Below are positions 2,111 through 59,144 of a stretch of 64,000 nt of DNA, in pieces (position 1 is the stretch's first letter; every line of letters begins with the position of its first letter). Position numbers and translations under genes: made by a program. The DNA is from Hysterium pulicare CBS 123377 (lineage: Eukaryota; Ascomycota; Dothideomycetes; Hysteriales; Hysteriaceae). Location of the stretch: assembly GCA_000467715.1 (NCBI GenBank), contig AJFK01001064.1, positions 62,001-126,000 on the forward strand, written 5' to 3'. The notes under the pieces are model-generated. The model did not search any database, was not told the origin of the DNA, and worked only from the letters and a program-made list of their open reading frames with translations.

Positions 2111-2964
2111 ATGCCAGATAAAGACAGCGGAACCCCCAGAGTTTTTCTATATAGACATGGTGTGCCAAACGCTGATAGAATTCCGTAGAGACCGAGCTGA
2201 TGATTTCAGGGGAAACTGGATGGTCAAAGTCTGGTAGATTTACCGGCACCACAGAAAAAAGCCTCACCAGTCATGGTGAAGCCCAAGTACTTGCGTCGGG
2301 CAAGATGATTGTCGGTGCTAGAAAACTGGTGGATCCGGGGAACCTCGCACACGTGTTCATCAGCCCTCGGAAACGGGCAAGTCGAACATTCGAACTTGCT
2401 TTTAGTGCGGAAGATAGAGAAGTGTTAGAGAAAGGCGGACGCGTGAGCGAAACGAGTCGCCTCGCTGAGTGGGATTACGGCTTGTATGAAGGCTTGAAGA
2501 CTGCTCAGATCAGGAAAGAAAGAAAAGAGCGAGGATTGGATACCCAAAAGGAATGGGATATCTGGCGAGACGGGTGCGAGGGCGGAGAGTACGTTTGATC
2601 AATGCTCCATTGCTGGCTCGTGAATCTGACGATGTGTATCTGCAGATCGCCACAGGAGGTAACGGACCGCATTGACTCTTTGATCACAGAGATCCGTGAG
2701 TTACAGAAAGATAGCATGCACGGTGAGAAAGCTGCTGACGTGCTGCTCTTTGCACACGGTCATCTGCTCCGTGCGTTCGTGAAAAGGTGGTTAGGCTATC
2801 CGATGGAATTTCCATTGTCATTGATGCTGGAGCCCGGTGCTGTTGGTGTTCTTAGGTGCGTGTTTCTAAGAGTACTATACGGGATGATGCTAATGGCTTA
2901 TAGTTACCAGCATCACAACATCGATGAGCCTGCATTGCTTGTTGGAGCTGGGTTTCCCCTTTGA
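2111..2964 (+). CDS. histidine phosphatase (phosphoglycerate mutase superfamily)
   Basis: Four exons (2111-2159, 2210-2588, 2646-2855, 2904-2964) encode about 232 residues. The N-terminus reads VFLYRHGETGWSKSGRFTG, the RHG phosphohistidine motif, and the splice at 2159/2210 falls inside the RHG glycine codon. The second catalytic signature is LLFAHGHLLRAF near residue 180, with GGESPQEV about 40 residues before it. This is the branch of small fungal phosphatases related to yeast Shb17 (sedoheptulose-1,7-bisphosphatase). The substrate cannot be fixed from sequence. The third intron is 48 nt and open in frame, so a retained-intron product would be 16 residues longer. Cytosolic by lack of signals. 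Confidence 0.88.
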
Positions 2965-3539
2965 TTGGTGATCATAGAAGGTGTTCGACTTCATAGACAT
3001 AGCAGCATGAGTGATAGAAAGACTTTGAATTCATTGAAACCAGATAGCATTGACAACTGAACATCAAGTAAGGAGTTGATGGATTAAACAAGAGGTTGAT
3101 GTACGTGACAAGCTGGTACTACTCATCTCGAGGCTGATAGAGATGCACGTGCCATGCCTATAATCAGTTTAGCGGGAAAGCTGCGGGGTAGGGAAATGTG
3201 ATGCCGAAGAGAGCATCATGTCTTGCTGCCGATTGATTCTCAGTGGACTGTTGACAGAAAAGGACCGAGATACGGAATGTAGTTGGAGTAGTTCTATGAC
3301 AAGCGGAGATTTATCCTCCGTCGTTGTGTATTTGAGGGCTAAGAAGGGCTCTGTCGGTTGAAGATTCCCGCTCTGTAATCGTCGCCGTACCTCGGGTGAG
3401 AGCTCCCATTGCAGAAATCTCACAGCTTTCATCCAGCATTGAAAAGACACCACACCCTCAAATACACCCGTACGACTGCATTTCCCTTCCTTCAGAGCTG
3501 TGTCGAGGTTGTCCAGGCACGGCGGAAGCTAATTTGATC
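2965..3539. other. intergenic, 5' leader of the next gene
   Basis: Non-coding stretch between the phosphatase and the dehydratase gene. A frame from about 3396 is open into the next gene, but the ATG at 3540 gives the expected mitochondrial presequence. No other structure seen. Confidence 0.55.
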
Positions 3540-53052: not shown

Positions 53053-55200
53053 ATGCCTTCGATACTCTCCGAAGAGGATAAGCTGACGGTCAAACGGACT
53101 GTGCCCAAAGCTTCGAACAAGATCCACGCCGTTGCCGTTGCGAAACTATATATAGCGTACCCCGACAGACACCGATGGACATACACTGGTCTTCAGGGTG
53201 CCGCAGTACTCGCAAATGACTTGGTTGGGAACACATTCTGGATCAAGCTGGTAGATGTGTCTGTACGTCAATTGCTCTGGCACTTCTCGATTTCTAACCT
53301 CACTAATTGTTACTAGCCTGCAAACCGTGGAGTGATATGGGATCAGGAAATCTACGACACTTTCTCCTACAATCAAGATCGTGTATTCTTCCATACCTTT
53401 GAACTCGAGGACTGTCTGGCCGGACTTTCTTTCAGCGATGAAAAAGAGGCAAAAACTTTCAAGAAGAAGATGGACGACCGAGAGAAGAAGGCAGATAAGA
53501 ATACGAGGAATAAGCCATTTGGAGCATCTATGCAAGGCTCATCCGCTACAAATGGCAAGAAGGAACACCATGGTCTACTTGGGGGTATCTTTGGCCACAG
53601 ACACAGTTCGGCTTCCCACCACCAGCCTCAATCGATCATTCCACCGAGCACTTTGAGTGTCACTTCACCTACTCAGAACAGCCATTCCAACGCATCGAGT
53701 GCCAGAAGCTCCGCGATTGATACTACGGATCCATCTTGGCAACCCCTACTGAAGGAATTGCTTGCTATGGGAATAACGGAGGATCAAATCGAGGAGAATG
53801 CCGACTTTATCAAGCTATATATTGAACAAAGGAAGATAGAGGAAAAGATAGCAGCAGACTCAGCAGCGAAAGGCGCGAGGGCTCCACCTCCCCCGCCACC
53901 GAGTGCACCTGCGGGAAGGACCACATCGATCAGCCCTCAGAATACGGGAAGCTCGAGGAGAGGGCCCCCTCCGGCTCCGCCGCCAGCAAGGAGAACTAGA
54001 ACTGATGTTCCTGTAGTCAACCGAGCTTCGTCATCAAGTCCAGCACCTCCTTCACCTCCAAGACAAGCATCGCCTCCTCCTGGGCCTCCCGTTCCGAGAT
54101 TCCGTGCTCCTCCTCCCATTGCTGAAGCTGGGAAATTTGCTCATGAGCCTCCAGCGCCTCCGTCAAGAGCGCGAGCTACTTCAAATAGTCTGGTAAATCC
54201 AGGGCCTCCCCCGCCTCCTCGACCCCCGAAAACACCCGTCGAAGAAGAGTCCAGTCAGCCAGCACACAAATTTGGCGTACCGCCGCCATTTACAGGCGCT
54301 CGCGCACCATCTAATCCACCTCTTCCGCCAAGTCGAGGTCCAGTCCCTCCTCCGCCCCCAGCGCGAGATACCCCTTCAATCCACGTAGCTCCTCCCCCAC
54401 TCCCGCCAAAAGGCTCGTCTGCGCCTCCGCCTCTACCGCCTACGACATCTCGTCCTCTCCCATCTCCGAGCTCAGTTCCTCCGCCCCCGCCTCGCAATAA
54501 TGTTCCCGAAGATGACGAGGACTACGATCCATATCGATATGCGGCTTCGGCACCACGCGCAGTACCTCCACCACCGCCTCTACCTTCAAATAATGCCCCT
54601 CATCCTCCTCCATTGCCTTCGACAAATGCCCCAGCACCGCCGCCTTTGCCGCCATTGGGCAACGTAGCACCGCCTCCTCCGCCGATGCCGCACAGTTCGA
54701 TACCTCCTCCGCCGCCGATGCCGAACAATTCGATTCCGCCTCCGCCTCCGATGCCGAACAAATCGATTCCCCCTCCACCTCCGATGCCTTCAGGCCACGT
54801 TCCTCCGCCTCCGCCTTTGCCCCCAGGCAACGGACCACCCCCACCGCCTCCAATGCCCGGCGCAGGCTTACCAAAGAAAGCGGCAGGTGGCGGCGGCGTA
54901 GACAATTTGTTGGCGGACATTCGTGGCGGTGCCAGGCTGAAGAAAGTTTCGGACGCGGAAAAGAGGGATCGCAGTGGAGCGCTCGTGCCGGGCGCGGAAC
55001 CTTCGGCCAGTTCACCTTCTGCTGGAGGTGCAGCTGCTGGTGCTGGTGCGGAAGCCGGTTTGGCTGGAGCGTTGGCTAGTGCGCTTGCTGCCAGGAAGAG
55101 TAAAGTTAGTCATAGTGGTAAGTTATTGGATATCTCGACCGTTTACTCTTCGATGTGCTAATGCATAATAGATGATGAGGATGAAAATGACGATTGGTGA
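53053..55200 (+). CDS. LAS17: WASP/Las17 homologue, Arp2/3 activator
   Basis: Three exons (53053-53262, 53317-55117, 55172-55200) give 679 residues. The WH1/EVH1 domain spans about 10-125 (KIHAVAVAKLYIAYPDRHRWTYTGLQGAA, GVIWDQEIYDTFSYNQDRVFFHTFELEDC). The middle (about 195-570) is Pro-rich, with five successive IPPPPPMP-type blocks that bind profilin and SH3 proteins. A WH2 actin-binding motif follows (NLLADIRGGARLKKVSD), then an Ala/Gly stretch. The last exon supplies the acidic end DDEDENDDW that contacts Arp2/3; without the 54-nt intron at 55118-55171 the protein would lose it. It drives actin patch assembly in endocytosis and would act on the complex containing the ARPC4 at 11.3-12.0 kb. 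Confidence 0.95.
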
Positions 55201-56634
55201 TTGAAGAATGAACGGGATTAGGTGGATGCTGTTTGTAGAATGCAATAACGGCTTTGGCCAATTCTTGTCAGGAGTCTAGGACAACCGCGAGGCACGACGG
55301 CTTCGTCCTGAGGACCCTGGAAAGACCATTGGTGGATGAAGAGACAAGTGTACTTTGTCTGGGTCAATGGGATTGAGACACTGCTCTGAAAGCGTGTGTG
55401 GATATTGAAAAACGATACCGAGGACCGAATTGGAGTTTAGCGTGGAGTAGTGTAGCGGTTACATTGATAGTTACTACTGAGAAGTATATGGCCCTTCTTT
55501 TGACCGCGCTTTATTGCTGAGTATGCCTTCTGCAAGGATCCCAGGGGTTTAAGTATGTCAACCGTGCATCTATATTTTACGTATCATGGTAGAATCACCC
55601 GAAGCCAGACGCTTCATAGTTTCCGGGGATGGATGTCAAAGTTCGAATGCTCAACATCCTAAGTTCGGATACCCACCAATTCGATGTTGTCTAATCATTA
55701 AATATGAAATTTCCAGACAAGAAGAATGCCTTCTTTCTCCTTGATGGGACTTCAAGGATTTGGAGCATGAGGAAAGGTTTCGAAGCAAAACGACAGGCTT
55801 GTTCAAAGAATGGAAATATCAAGATGGCGTTACCATCGGCCCCTTAATTAAACACCCTTTTTAAACGTCTTCCTGATCTCCAAAACATCGTGCATCTCAG
55901 CTGGCTTTTGTTGAAAGGAGAACTGTCCAACGGAAACCCCTGATCCCCTTATCACCCTCAGATATTTGAGATATTGTGTACGGGGCTTGAAAAGGGGAGA
56001 TAACTGCATACCTTGGACCAGCCCATGAAAGAGATGTAGTCTATTCTACACCCTGTAGGTGTTTGTCCAGGGAGTTTGCTGCTTGTCTTACTTAAATAGC
56101 TGCTCCCACCTACCTTGTACCAGCGGATCATTTCTTTCTCTTCAGAAACACAATGACGTCCCGCAAACATGAGATGAGATACGTCTTTCATGGATGCGAG
56201 CGAATAACACATATAGCTCCTGAACAGACTTGTATGCATGACTTCCCAGAGAGAAGCTGCGTTGAAATACGTACCAAAAGTATTCAGGGGACTAGTACCC
56301 GGGAGGTTTTGTGATACCCACGTAGAAGCAGGACACTGAAAAGACTTGAAGTATTATTTCAAATCCTTGGGCCGTCTTGAATATAACGATGAGTGTCTGA
56401 AGGAGGAAGATACTGGCTTGGTCCACTCCTTACGGCTAGCGTCGAGCAAGAACGATAGAAGCCCCGCACAGAACCTAATGATTCATTCGCCTCTGAAGCC
56501 CCTCCTCCTGAGTCACGCCGACATGCCCTGATTGGTGATAATCCTTGGGAAAGTTCACGCGTTGCTTCTGCGTTCGTCTGTAACCAAGTACTTATTCCGA
56601 TCAAAATTCTTTCTCCTTTAAATCTCTTACAATC
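55201..56634. other. intergenic between LAS17 and the tRNA gene
   Basis: 3' flank of LAS17 and about 1.2 kb more with only short open frames. Nothing recognised. Confidence 0.5.
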
Positions 56635-56656
56635 GGACAGATGGCCGAGCGGTTAA

Positions 56657-56708
56657 GTCAGTACCATTTGGAGATTTTTTGATTGAAATCTTGCTAACCA
56701 TATGCCAG
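56657..56708 (+). other. spliceosomal-type intron in the tRNA D-arm
   Basis: 52 nt, begins GTCAGT, has GCTAAC 15 nt before its end and closes with GCCAG. It lies between the D-loop and the 3' half of the D-stem; joining TTAA to GGCG restores the canonical D-arm. It contains six T in a row (56675-56680), normally a Pol III stop signal. Confidence 0.75.
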
Positions 56709-56723
56709 GGCGTGCGACTCAAG

Positions 56724-56748
56724 TGAAAGCTTTCCAGTTTAACTGGTT
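56724..56748 (+). other. canonical tRNA intron after position 37
   Basis: 25 nt directly 3' of the base after the CAA anticodon, the standard place for introns cut by the tRNA splicing endonuclease; tRNA-Leu(CAA) commonly has one. It contains a CCAG/CTGG hairpin and a CTT that can pair with the AAG of the anticodon loop. Confidence 0.85.
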
Positions 56749-56772
56749 TTCGCATGGAGAAATCCTCGTGGG

Positions 56773-56821
56773 GTATGTGATATCTAGTCTTCAATACAGA
56801 TTACAACTAATTTCCCAACAG
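56773..56821 (+). other. spliceosomal-type intron in the tRNA T-arm
   Basis: 49 nt, begins with the strong donor GTATGT, has an ACTAAT branch site 13-18 nt before its end and closes with ACAG. It separates the 5' T-stem (GTGGG) from the T-loop (TTCGAAT). Removal restores the T-arm exactly. Its final G stands in for the missing base of the B box. Confidence 0.78.
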
Positions 56822-56847
56822 TTCGAATCCCACTCTGTTCAACATTC

Positions 56848-56853
56848 TTTTTT
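56848..56853 (+). terminator. Pol III T6 terminator after tRNA-Leu
   Basis: Six consecutive T begin 7 nt after the discriminator base, the usual place and length for a fungal RNA polymerase III terminator. Confidence 0.75.
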
Positions 56854-57372
56854 GTCATTGTCATTTTATAGTAATACCTATATACTTGTTTCAATAGCTA
56901 TGTTGGTTGATTAAATGCTAATGAATCAAAAAAGCTTGATGCTACTTTTTTTTGAAAGTTGCGAAGGTGGGGGCGTAATATGCCAACACAGGATAGTTCT
57001 CGTATATTAATCGAAACTCCAGCAGCATTTCTGGCCCAGCACCAGTTACGGTGTAACTTGAGAAATATCAGAGGTCAATAAATAAAAGAGAGCCCCTATA
57101 TCTATCTCCCACAGAGATGAGATGTACACGATAACTTATAATGATGACGGAATTTCTCCATTTCAAGACCATAATAGAATTGCCTCAATGTCATTCAAAA
57201 TTATATTCCGCTATTTGTACATGCCGACATTAATTGAGAGCATTCGCTCTATCATGACTAATTTCCTACCTCCAGGCGCTGCTGAAGGTATGTATATATC
57301 TCATAAAGCCCATCCATGCTCAAGTAATGAATGTGTTCCCATAGCTCAGGTCTTATAGACGCCTCCTCTCGA
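56854..57372. other. intergenic, AT-rich
   Basis: Flank between the tRNA and the convergent end of the next gene. A frame at 57122-57358 plus is open but lacks motifs. Confidence 0.5.
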
Positions 57373-58201
57373 TCATTTGTTCAACTCCTCAGATCGCTTC
57401 TTCAACTCCTCCTTGCTGGCTGGTTTTCCGATGTTCTCAGCCATCACAGGGCCCTGTACCAAGACATGTCAGCTCCATCATATCCAATTTGACCTTTATG
57501 TTTGTGACGGAAGGTAGTCTGTACGTACTGGATTGGCCTTATGAGCAGCCTGTGCCGCCATGCCACTAATACCTCCCGACGTGGCGCCCGAATTGTCATC
57601 TTGATGGTTGGGGTGGTCGGAAGCGGTGGAGTCGTTGGATTCCTTGGCGACTTTATCGAACAAGTCTATGAAGCACGAGATTGTTAGCATGTTTGTTCAT
57701 CCAAGGAGAGAATCGGACACGTCTGTGCTGCAGAGGTTCATCGTCCCTAGAAAAGGATACAGATAAAAGACCGACGAGGTAGAGAGATCGATAAGGTAAT
57801 GATTTCAAGGATAGACCATCCTAAATGGACGTCTTGATGGGTCGTACTCGATCATGGTGATCGTGCTCGAAAAGACAGGACTTACTACTGCCAGTATTTT
57901 CTTCGGCGGGATGAACAGGCATCTTAGCTTTTTTCTGTCTTCTCCAATTTCCGAATTCGTTCTTGATATTCCCGAGTCCTTCTGCCCTCAAACTGAGCTT
58001 CTCAAAAGCCTTCTGTATCTCTTCGTTGGTCGAGTTCGGGGTGATTAGAATCTCTTCCTCTTCTTCGTCGTCTGACTGTTGCGTATTCGATGGAGTGTCT
58101 TTGGCGAGATCGGCGAAATTGGGTTTCTGGGCGTAGTAGTCGTCGATGAGTTCGTGTATGGGTTTCGTGGAGCCAGGAGGAATTGTGGATGGTGAGGCCA
58201 T
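57373..58201 (-). CDS. small acidic conserved-type protein of unknown function
   Basis: Three exons on the minus strand (58201-57886, 57665-57529, 57453-57373) give 177 residues. The N-terminus MASPSTIPPGSTKPIHELIDDYYAQKPNFADLA is followed by an acidic run of nine Asp/Glu with one Ser nearby (QQSDDEEEEEILI), a short helix (TNEEIQKAFEKLSLRAEGLGNIKNEFGNWRRQKKAKM), a Ser/Asp/His-rich linker and a C-terminal charged helix (GKPASKEELKKRSEELNK). Splice sites are consensus (GTAAGT, GTACGT) and the frame joins cleanly. No domain recognised; the mixed acidic and basic helical plan suggests a protein-binding adaptor. Confidence 0.78.
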
Positions 58202-59144
58202 TATAAGGAAATATGACCGGTGACGTCGCTCAATATACGCGCCAAAGGGAAGGTGGGGTGCCAAGGCTGGTGCGGGGCCTTGTGGACCGAGCTGGAAAAG
58301 TTCTAGATAGAGTCGTGAATTAAAGTAAAAAGGTCTTTGACGAGGTCGAGAAATACGGAAAGATGATGGCTTGCGACGGCGAGGAATGTACCCTATTATA
58401 AAGTGAGAATCGCCAGGTTCTTCGCTGTCATCGTGGAACAGAAACTGCCGTGAACCGTCTGCAACATGTTGAGAAAATGTTAGCAACGCCTTAAACATCC
58501 TCTGGAATCAACGGCTTTTGACATAATTTCCCGAATTGGAAATACATTTTCTAAGCTTCCATTGGTGCGGCATAGAACAATATCAATCTCACATTTGACA
58601 TTAAACTTTACACAGGGTTATTCTTTGTCCACCTGAAGACTCTTGTCCAACTTTTAGATCTTTGACTAATATTTACTTTGTCTCATTTAGCGGATATATT
58701 CTCTACAATATGTTGCGATTTCTGCTTCCTCCTCTTCACAACTCCTTATGTAGCATCTCAGCCTATCTCTACTCTCTGAAAAAGCGCCGCCTCTTTCTCA
58801 AATCTGCGAGCAAAATGTGCCCACATTTGATTCCAAGGCATCTGTTGTGCCGCTCTTTGGTCACCTTCCTCTAGAGAAGAACCCAGGAAGCGAGGCGAGG
58901 ACTCATATCCAAACCCATCGTGACAAGCTCTGGACGAAGTTGATGTAGAAAGTATACTCTTGAGCCTTCTTTCGGGGGTTCACTTCTCCTCTTCCGCATG
59001 TACTATAAGTACTCCGGGGTTCCCGCCAAAAGCTTGTCTCACTCCCAAGGCGTGGCCGATGACTCCACACTCTCCCGTGTAGCCAAAGAGAAGATTCTGA
59101 TGCCATACACCCGTCCATCATCCCTCTGAATTCAGATATTCTTT
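58202..59144. other. intergenic, nothing recognised
   Basis: The minus frame of the neighbouring gene is open upstream to about 58498, but the ATG at 58201 is the better start. No other feature seen. Confidence 0.5.

Follow-up and report, generated by a model that had tools for sequence, protein, structure and literature searches.

The U6 snRNA of Schizosaccharomyces pombe contains an mRNA-type intron that is spliced during maturation (PMC10484740), and fungal U3 is described as the product of a Pol III gene that contains normal spliceosomal introns (PMC5832005). A spliceosomal intron of lichen rDNA is removed by yeast from a Pol I rRNA (PMC8527467). According to a 2017 paper (PMC5832005), U3 and U6 were the sole small structured RNAs then known to be often interrupted by introns. 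tRNA genes with two or three introns, located in the D, anticodon and T arms, are known from Cyanidioschyzon merolae, nucleomorphs and crenarchaea, and the archaeal positions include 25/26 and 53/54 (PMC4090602; PMC4033280). The main texts of the two reviews contain no word beginning with "spliceosom". Among the papers listed by our literature search, with preprints and most subscription papers outside its scope, there was no report of spliceosomal introns in tRNA genes, which is weak evidence of absence.

Here we analyzed a 64-kb window of the genome of Hysterium pulicare CBS 123377 (64,000 nucleotides of contig AJFK01001064.1, the whole stretch under study). A first-pass annotation had proposed that a tRNA-Leu(CAA) gene in this window is interrupted by two inserts of spliceosomal type in addition to a normal tRNA intron, and that its transcript may mature through two splicing machines. 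The same annotation held that Pol III RNAs are not normal substrates of the spliceosome, a statement that has to be tempered in view of the U6, U3 and rRNA precedents.

The tRNA-Leu(CAA) gene of the window

The gene occupies positions 56635-56841 of the plus strand, on which all features of this locus are located, and consists of four exons separated by three inserts of 52, 25 and 49 nt. Exon 1 (56635..56656) contains the 5′ strand of the acceptor stem (GGACAGA), nt 8-9 and the 5′ part of the D arm. It is followed by mRNA-type intron 1 (56657..56708; 52 nt), which lies within the D arm, starts with GTCAGT, includes GCTAAC and ends with CCAG; the A of its branch-point-like CTAAC (56694..56698) is 11 nt before the intron end. 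Exon 2 (56709..56723) contributes the 3′ part of the D stem, nt 26, the 5′ strand of the anticodon stem (TGCGA) and the loop up to nt 37, including the anticodon CAA. The next insert (56724..56748; 25 nt) is a canonical tRNA intron at the Sen-type position 37/38, listed by ARAGORN as i(39,25). Exon 3 (56749..56772) comprises nt 38, the 3′ strand of the anticodon stem (TCGCA), a long variable arm, as in leucine tRNAs, and the 5′ strand of the T stem (GTGGG). The mRNA-type intron 2 (56773..56821; 49 nt, GTATGT ... ACTAAT ... ACAG) separates nt 53 from nt 54, and the A of its branch-point-like CTAAT (56807..56811) is likewise 11 nt before the end. Exon 4 (56822..56841) supplies the T loop (TTCGAAT), the 3′ strand of the T stem (CCCAC), the 3′ strand of the acceptor stem (TCTGTTC) and A73.

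The four exonic pieces of the first-pass annotation were found to be exact to the base at every junction, and the spliceosomal signals that it had read in the 52- and 49-nt inserts are present in the sequence. The placement of intron 1 within the tRNA is the one point to be qualified: this intron can be slid by one base with the product unchanged, and its place, approximately 21/22 to 22/23 at the border of the D loop and the D stem, is not unique. A one-base slide is also possible for intron 2, but only a single register gives GT-AG.

No tRNA was detected at 56635-56841 when the 64-kb window was analyzed with ARAGORN, nor by Rfam at the gathering score or at E values up to 10 on 55000-58500. 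This would be expected of an interrupted gene. When the two GT-AG inserts were removed, ARAGORN identified tRNA-Leu(caa) with a 25-nt intron, which agrees with the earlier assignment of the 25-nt insert as a normal tRNA intron. Excision of all three inserts, as had been predicted, restored the cloverleaf: ARAGORN returned tRNA-Leu(caa), and 20 of the 21 stem pairs were formed, 19 of them Watson-Crick. In an unconstrained free-energy fold of the mature tRNA, 37 of 42 brackets matched the cloverleaf.

The frequency of such structures arising by chance was estimated from three controls. The last 21 nt of the gene were grafted behind each of 976 stretches of 300 nt from elsewhere in the window, and at most two GT-AG excisions were permitted; a cloverleaf score of at least 45 was obtained in none of these and a score of at least 40 in two, the score of the gene itself being 50. 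Among the 17 T-loop sites of the window a score of 40 was reached only by the tRNA-Leu(CAA) gene, with 38 as the next value, and none of the 25 T-loop sites in the reversed window reached 40.

Elements resembling those of Pol III genes are present as well. By inspection, the string TGGCCGAGCGG at 56642..56652 represents the A box and is uninterrupted. The string AGTTCGAATCC at 56820..56830 is B-box-like (consensus GGTTCGANTCC); it exists in the DNA with the terminal AG of intron 2 in the place of nt 52-53, which gives G53. A terminator-like T6 run (56848..56853) begins 6 nt beyond the end of the gene. A further T6 run within intron 1 (56675..56680), a possible premature Pol III terminator, equals the gene's own terminator in length and is the only run of five or more T inside the 16 interrupted genes considered below. 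Pol III might stop at this run in some rounds of transcription, or the gene might be weak. With one T5+ run observed in the inserts and about 2.3 expected by chance, depletion was not significant and gives no proof of selection against such runs.

The first-pass annotation had raised the question of an intact Leu(CAA) gene elsewhere. A 23-mer consisting of exon 1 and one additional base, and a 22-mer from exon 3, were each found at one place only in the 37.2-Mb genome when up to three mismatches were allowed in ungapped comparison, and no second Leu(CAA) was present among the 40 tRNA genes recovered by a survey that is not a census. As far as can be tested from the sequence, the Leu(CAA) gene appears to be single-copy. 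UUG codons might also be decoded by Leu(TAA), and the Leu(CAA) gene therefore need not be essential.

Interrupted tRNA genes in the genome

The survey covered the 37.2-Mb genome (596 contigs) and drew on three sources. The B-box pattern GGTTCGANYCC gave 84 sites, all of which were taken as loci; this pattern was not enriched, as the reversed control contained 145 matches. Patterns combining the T loop with T5, of which two were covered in full (89 and 47 matches) and others up to the matches listed, contributed only their more tRNA-like places. The T loop with T5 was enriched (89 matches versus 46 in the reversed control), and the GTTCAA form was not (47 versus 41). The third source was a set of 20 listed Rfam tRNA matches, for which 63 of 1229 candidates had been scored, and which served as a starting set, not a census. 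AGTTCGANYC was rejected as a search pattern for being too loose (538 matches). CTAAY ahead of AGTTCGA was not enriched (39 places versus 72 in the reversed control); these 39 places hold five of the 16 interrupted genes and no new one.

A total of 242 T-loop sites were parsed, and at each of them one or two excisions of 44-80 nt could be made, starting with GTNN[AGT]T and ending with AG. The scores were split: 39 sites scored 50-59, seven scored 40-48, and the rest scored 37 or less or were unparsed (no parse in 155 of 242). The 39 sites scoring at least 50, together with Tyr(GTA) at L014, the T loop of which is outside the pattern, were considered as 40 confident tRNA genes. The seven sites at 40-48 (L133, L018 twice, L048, L079, L036 and L078) were used neither as tRNA genes nor as controls, and the tRNA-like L019, L020, L029, L068 and L080, which have no near terminator, were excluded from the 40. 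The survey yielded no gene for Asp or Asn; it is therefore certainly incomplete, and insert-free copies may have been missed. The confident tRNA genes are few and mostly one per anticodon, and in such a low-copy set each insert may be costly.

We found 23 mRNA-type inserts in 16 of the 40 genes, with two inserts in seven genes and one in nine. The interrupted genes are Leu(CAA) of the window, Leu(AAG) L052, Leu(TAA) L105, Arg(ACG) L076, Arg(TCG) L123, Ile(AAT) L077, Gly(TCC) L016, Gly(CCC) L107, Lys(TTT) L095, Thr(TGT) L022, Pro(TGG) L139, Cys(GCA) L100, Val(CAC) L044, Phe(GAA) L093, Ala(CGC) L180 and Trp(CCA) L183. Arg(TCG) has the plan of the window gene, with inserts in the D loop, at 37/38 and at 53/54. 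The other 24 genes were insert-free and each was given an isotype by ARAGORN. At L011, L014, L015 and L096 the program produced odd labels through a misplaced 37/38 intron; once this intron was removed, the genes were identified as Lys(CTT), Tyr(GTA), Gln(CTG) and Met(CAT), respectively. Overall, a 37/38 intron is present in 31 of the 40 genes, 13 of the 16 interrupted and 18 of the 24 insert-free ones.

Mature forms, supplied to ARAGORN with short artificial flanks, were assigned the expected isotype and anticodon in all 16 cases and form 20 or 21 of 21 stem pairs. With the mRNA-type inserts alone removed, a tRNA was reported for all 16 genes and the expected anticodon for 13. In the unspliced state eight genes were missed, and among the other eight the anticodon was right only in Arg(ACG), Gly(TCC) and Ala(CGC). 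The sequence of the Ala(CGC) gene retains the G3:U70 pair. Unconstrained free-energy folding reproduced the exact cloverleaf for Phe only (42 of 42 brackets); the other 15 mature tRNAs matched in 23-40 of 42 brackets, with z from -0.3 to -2.5.

The 24 insert-free genes recovered include a copy for only two of the 16 interrupted isoacceptors, Ile(AAT) (L099) and Gly(CCC) (L007), and none for the other 14. For Phe, Trp and Cys a single gene each was recovered, and it is interrupted. A run of at least four T begins within 40 nt downstream of every one of the 16 genes. The B box is present in all of them by way of the search, and the A box is unbroken in all except Val(CAC) and Phe(GAA). In Val(CAC) the first insert lies within the A box at 11/12, and the terminal TAG of the insert together with the following CTAGTGG partly rebuilds an A-box-like string. 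The first insert of Phe(GAA) also lies within the A box, in the D loop before GG.

Several other groups of loci were noted in the course of the survey. L097, L101, L102, L103, L106, L109, L125, L130 and L132 are recurrent non-tRNA loci of 650-705 bases in which a B box resembling a T loop is accompanied by a T run. An upstream TATA stretch is present in most of them (e.g. CACCTATATATA..TTTTATT), like the U6 copy L172, and some carry CTTCGGGGGG or AAGCTAACG; L097 and L109 resemble C/D snoRNAs. No Rfam match to these loci was obtained at E up to 0.5. They look like multi-copy Pol III RNAs with an upstream TATA and a downstream B box. The two copies of L018, L078 and L133, with scores of 40-48, are tRNA-like, with GGGGA/GGAGA acceptors, odd long anticodon arms and T runs; they show no clear anticodon and no GT-AG insert, and the Rfam tRNA model matches one L018 copy only. 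These are perhaps tRNAs with another type of insert. The tRNA-like L019, L020, L029, L068 and L080 (..CGGTGTAGT.., GGTGAGATGGTG..) occur as several diverged copies with no near T run and are perhaps tRNA-derived repeats.

Signals, boundaries and positions of the inserts

All 23 inserts start with GT, end with AG and have T at +6; G at +5 is present in 22 and a pyrimidine before the AG in 21. A strict CTRAY was found in 20 inserts, in which the distance from its A to the insert end is 8-14 nt, and is absent from three. The length is 47-78 nt with a median of 51. For comparison, three introns of protein genes in the window were located by protein alignment: 54 nt (GTACGT..CTAAT..CCAG), 49 nt (GTAATT..CTAAC..GCAG) and 48 nt (GTAGGC..CTGAC..TTAG). 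In these three the size and signals are the same as in the inserts, in agreement with the first-pass annotation. As regards proteins encoded in the window, the best named matches of 2-methylcitrate dehydratase and ferric reductase are from Glonium stellatum (94% and 85%, respectively), and that of ubiquitin hydrolase is from Zopfia rhizophila (81%), with no Glonium among the 120 matches listed. The proteins are thus closest to those of Dothideomycetes, and the host, a filamentous ascomycete, may stand near Gloniaceae.

The boundaries were examined by enumerating all excisions of 40-90 nt, with GT-AG not required and the other inserts of the gene taken out, and scoring the resulting cloverleaf. 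The annotated excision was at the top score in 16 of the 23 inserts and was the sole top in nine. These nine GT-AG excisions were the best of 2,137-3,163 by cloverleaf score alone. Intron 2 of the window gene was the single best among 2921 distinct products; for intron 1 of this gene some non-GT-AG excision outscored the annotated one. A rival GT-AG excision never gave a better score than the annotated one and tied with it in two of 23 cases. Non-GT-AG excisions scored 1-5 points above the annotated one in seven inserts, the worst case being intron 2 of Cys, where 115 such excisions did so. An automatic GT-AG scan arrived at the same introns as annotated for 14 genes out of 16; it omitted Cys intron 2 and took the insert of Arg(ACG) for a long intron of the anticodon loop. 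Of the 23 inserts, these two are the least certain.

The inserts are found at positions from 11/12 to 53/54. Thirteen are located in the stretch from the D arm to 26/27, two in the anticodon arm, two in the variable loop, two in the T stem (50/51 and 51/52) and four at 53/54. The acceptor stem and the part of the tRNA beyond nt 54 contain none of the 23, a gap that is partly methodological because only genes with an uninterrupted T loop and 3′ end could be found by the searches. With the splice regions trimmed, no likeness was detected among the 23 inserts: the score of the best pair was matched or exceeded in 55 of 60 shuffles. An introner-like origin, which we also considered, is not supported, given this absence of mutual sequence similarity.

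Proposed removal of the inserts and comparison with known systems

The observations are best explained if working tRNA genes have been invaded by U2-type introns, which the spliceosome would remove, the 37/38 intron being left to the Sen endonuclease. We regard this as very probable. The earlier proposal of two splicing machines for one tRNA, where splicing itself is deduced from sequence, is strengthened by the occurrence of the same grammar in 16 tRNA genes.

That the interrupted genes are instead pseudogenes or dead copies with introns, the tRNAs being made from intact copies outside the assembly or the survey, is unlikely. Dead genes should lose their splice signals, and here GT-AG is retained in all 23 inserts, G at +5 in 22 and CTRAY in 20. 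Nor does the formation of 20 or 21 of 21 stem pairs in all 16 genes, each followed by a T run, suggest decay. An assembly in 596 contigs and a survey without Asp and Asn genes do leave room for additional copies, and insert-free copies exist for Ile(AAT) and Gly(CCC); against this stand the uniqueness of the Leu(CAA) exon probes at up to three mismatches and the lack of a recovered insert-free copy for 14 isoacceptors. The window gene, with a T6 run in its intron 1, would in this respect fit a dead copy. A comparable situation is described in PMC4090602, where eukaryotic insertions in the D and T arms mostly affect a single gene out of many synonymous ones, and such genes are regarded as pseudogenes.

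Even less probable is removal of the inserts by the tRNA splicing endonuclease as ectopic introns bounded by a bulge-helix-bulge (BHB), as in Cyanidioschyzon and archaea, although ectopic introns of the D, anticodon and T arms are described, including archaeal ones at 25/26 and 53/54 (PMC4090602). BHB pairing in the strict sense, between nt 2-5 of the intron and nt 2-5 of the downstream exon, was found in two of the 23 inserts, neither of them in the window gene, and the endonuclease model leaves GT, G at +5, CTAAY and YAG unexplained. Finally, it is also very improbable that these are tRNA-like segments of Pol II transcripts, spliced as mRNA or lncRNA, with the tRNA incidental or released: Pol II transcripts are the ordinary spliceosome substrates and an internal T6 would not halt Pol II, but the cloverleaf is bounded by the acceptor stem and discriminator, a T run lies just beyond all 16 genes, the A box is unbroken in 14 and the B box, by way of finding, is present in all.

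If tRNA genes carrying U2-type introns are indeed at work, the A and B boxes would direct Pol III transcription of the whole window gene, and the nuclear spliceosome would then remove the D-arm and 53/54 introns. End processing would follow, and the Sen endonuclease and tRNA ligase would act last, on the 37/38 intron. Spliceosomal removal is placed first because the D and T arms could not fold otherwise. Sen of budding yeast is active outside the nuclear compartment, so the order of spliceosome and then Sen would arise naturally. In the inserts at 53/54 the AG of the intron precedes TTCGA, so that the DNA retains G53 of the B box. This site may be tolerable for transcription since the AG of the 3′ splice site supplies the invariant G53.

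It is likely, with somewhat less confidence than for the presence of U2-type introns as such, that the spliceosome is an obligatory tRNA-processing machine in this lineage, without which Phe, Trp, Cys, Leu and other tRNAs could not be made. Two unrelated splicing systems would then act in turn, translation capacity would be tied to spliceosome capacity, and introns would survive mainly where the Pol III promoter is kept or rebuilt (53/54, 4 of 23 inserts). If true, this would represent a new class of tRNA introns and a genome-scale service of the spliceosome to Pol III transcripts. It bears on whether the spliceosome requires Pol II at all, on the ordering of spliceosomal and Sen splicing on a single RNA, and on how introns spread into genes that have internal promoters. 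Fungal annotations may list as "missing" or "pseudo" some tRNA genes that are simply hidden, because most genes built in this way are overlooked or misinterpreted by ARAGORN and Rfam.

Compared with described systems, the inserts would represent a known intron class (U2-type) in a class of RNA, tRNA, for which we found no report of it. The introns of archaea and C. merolae are BHB-based, in contrast to the inserts described here, which have BHB pairing in two of 23 cases, a length of 47-78 nt and GT/CTAAY/AG signals, and those of nucleomorphs are 3-24 nt long (PMC4090602). Some positions of the inserts (25/26, 53/54) are shared with archaea. Canonical 37/38 introns are also present in 13 of the 16 interrupted genes, the window gene included, and the other inserts differ from them in position and signals. 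Introner-like elements are known from Dothideomycetes, the same fungal class, where spliceosomal introns multiply (PMC4457414); unlike these, the 23 inserts have no mutual likeness beyond the trimmed splice regions. The introns of U3 and lichen rDNA resemble the tRNA inserts in being spliceosomal introns of non-coding RNA (PMC8527467; PMC5832005). They differ in that the tRNA inserts interrupt arms on which folding depends and are located inside the internal promoter or next to it. In H. pulicare itself, the best-scoring U6 copy (L172) has no intron; another copy (L174:1501-1607) has the 5′ stem-loop replaced by other sequence with the rest conserved, and may be a pseudogene or a variant. The U6 introns of S. 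pombe and other fungi share with the tRNA inserts the combination of a spliceosomal intron and a small structured Pol III RNA (PMC10484740; PMC5832005). The difference is that the host RNA here is a tRNA and that many genes are affected, with two such introns in seven of the 16 and a 37/38 intron besides in 13.
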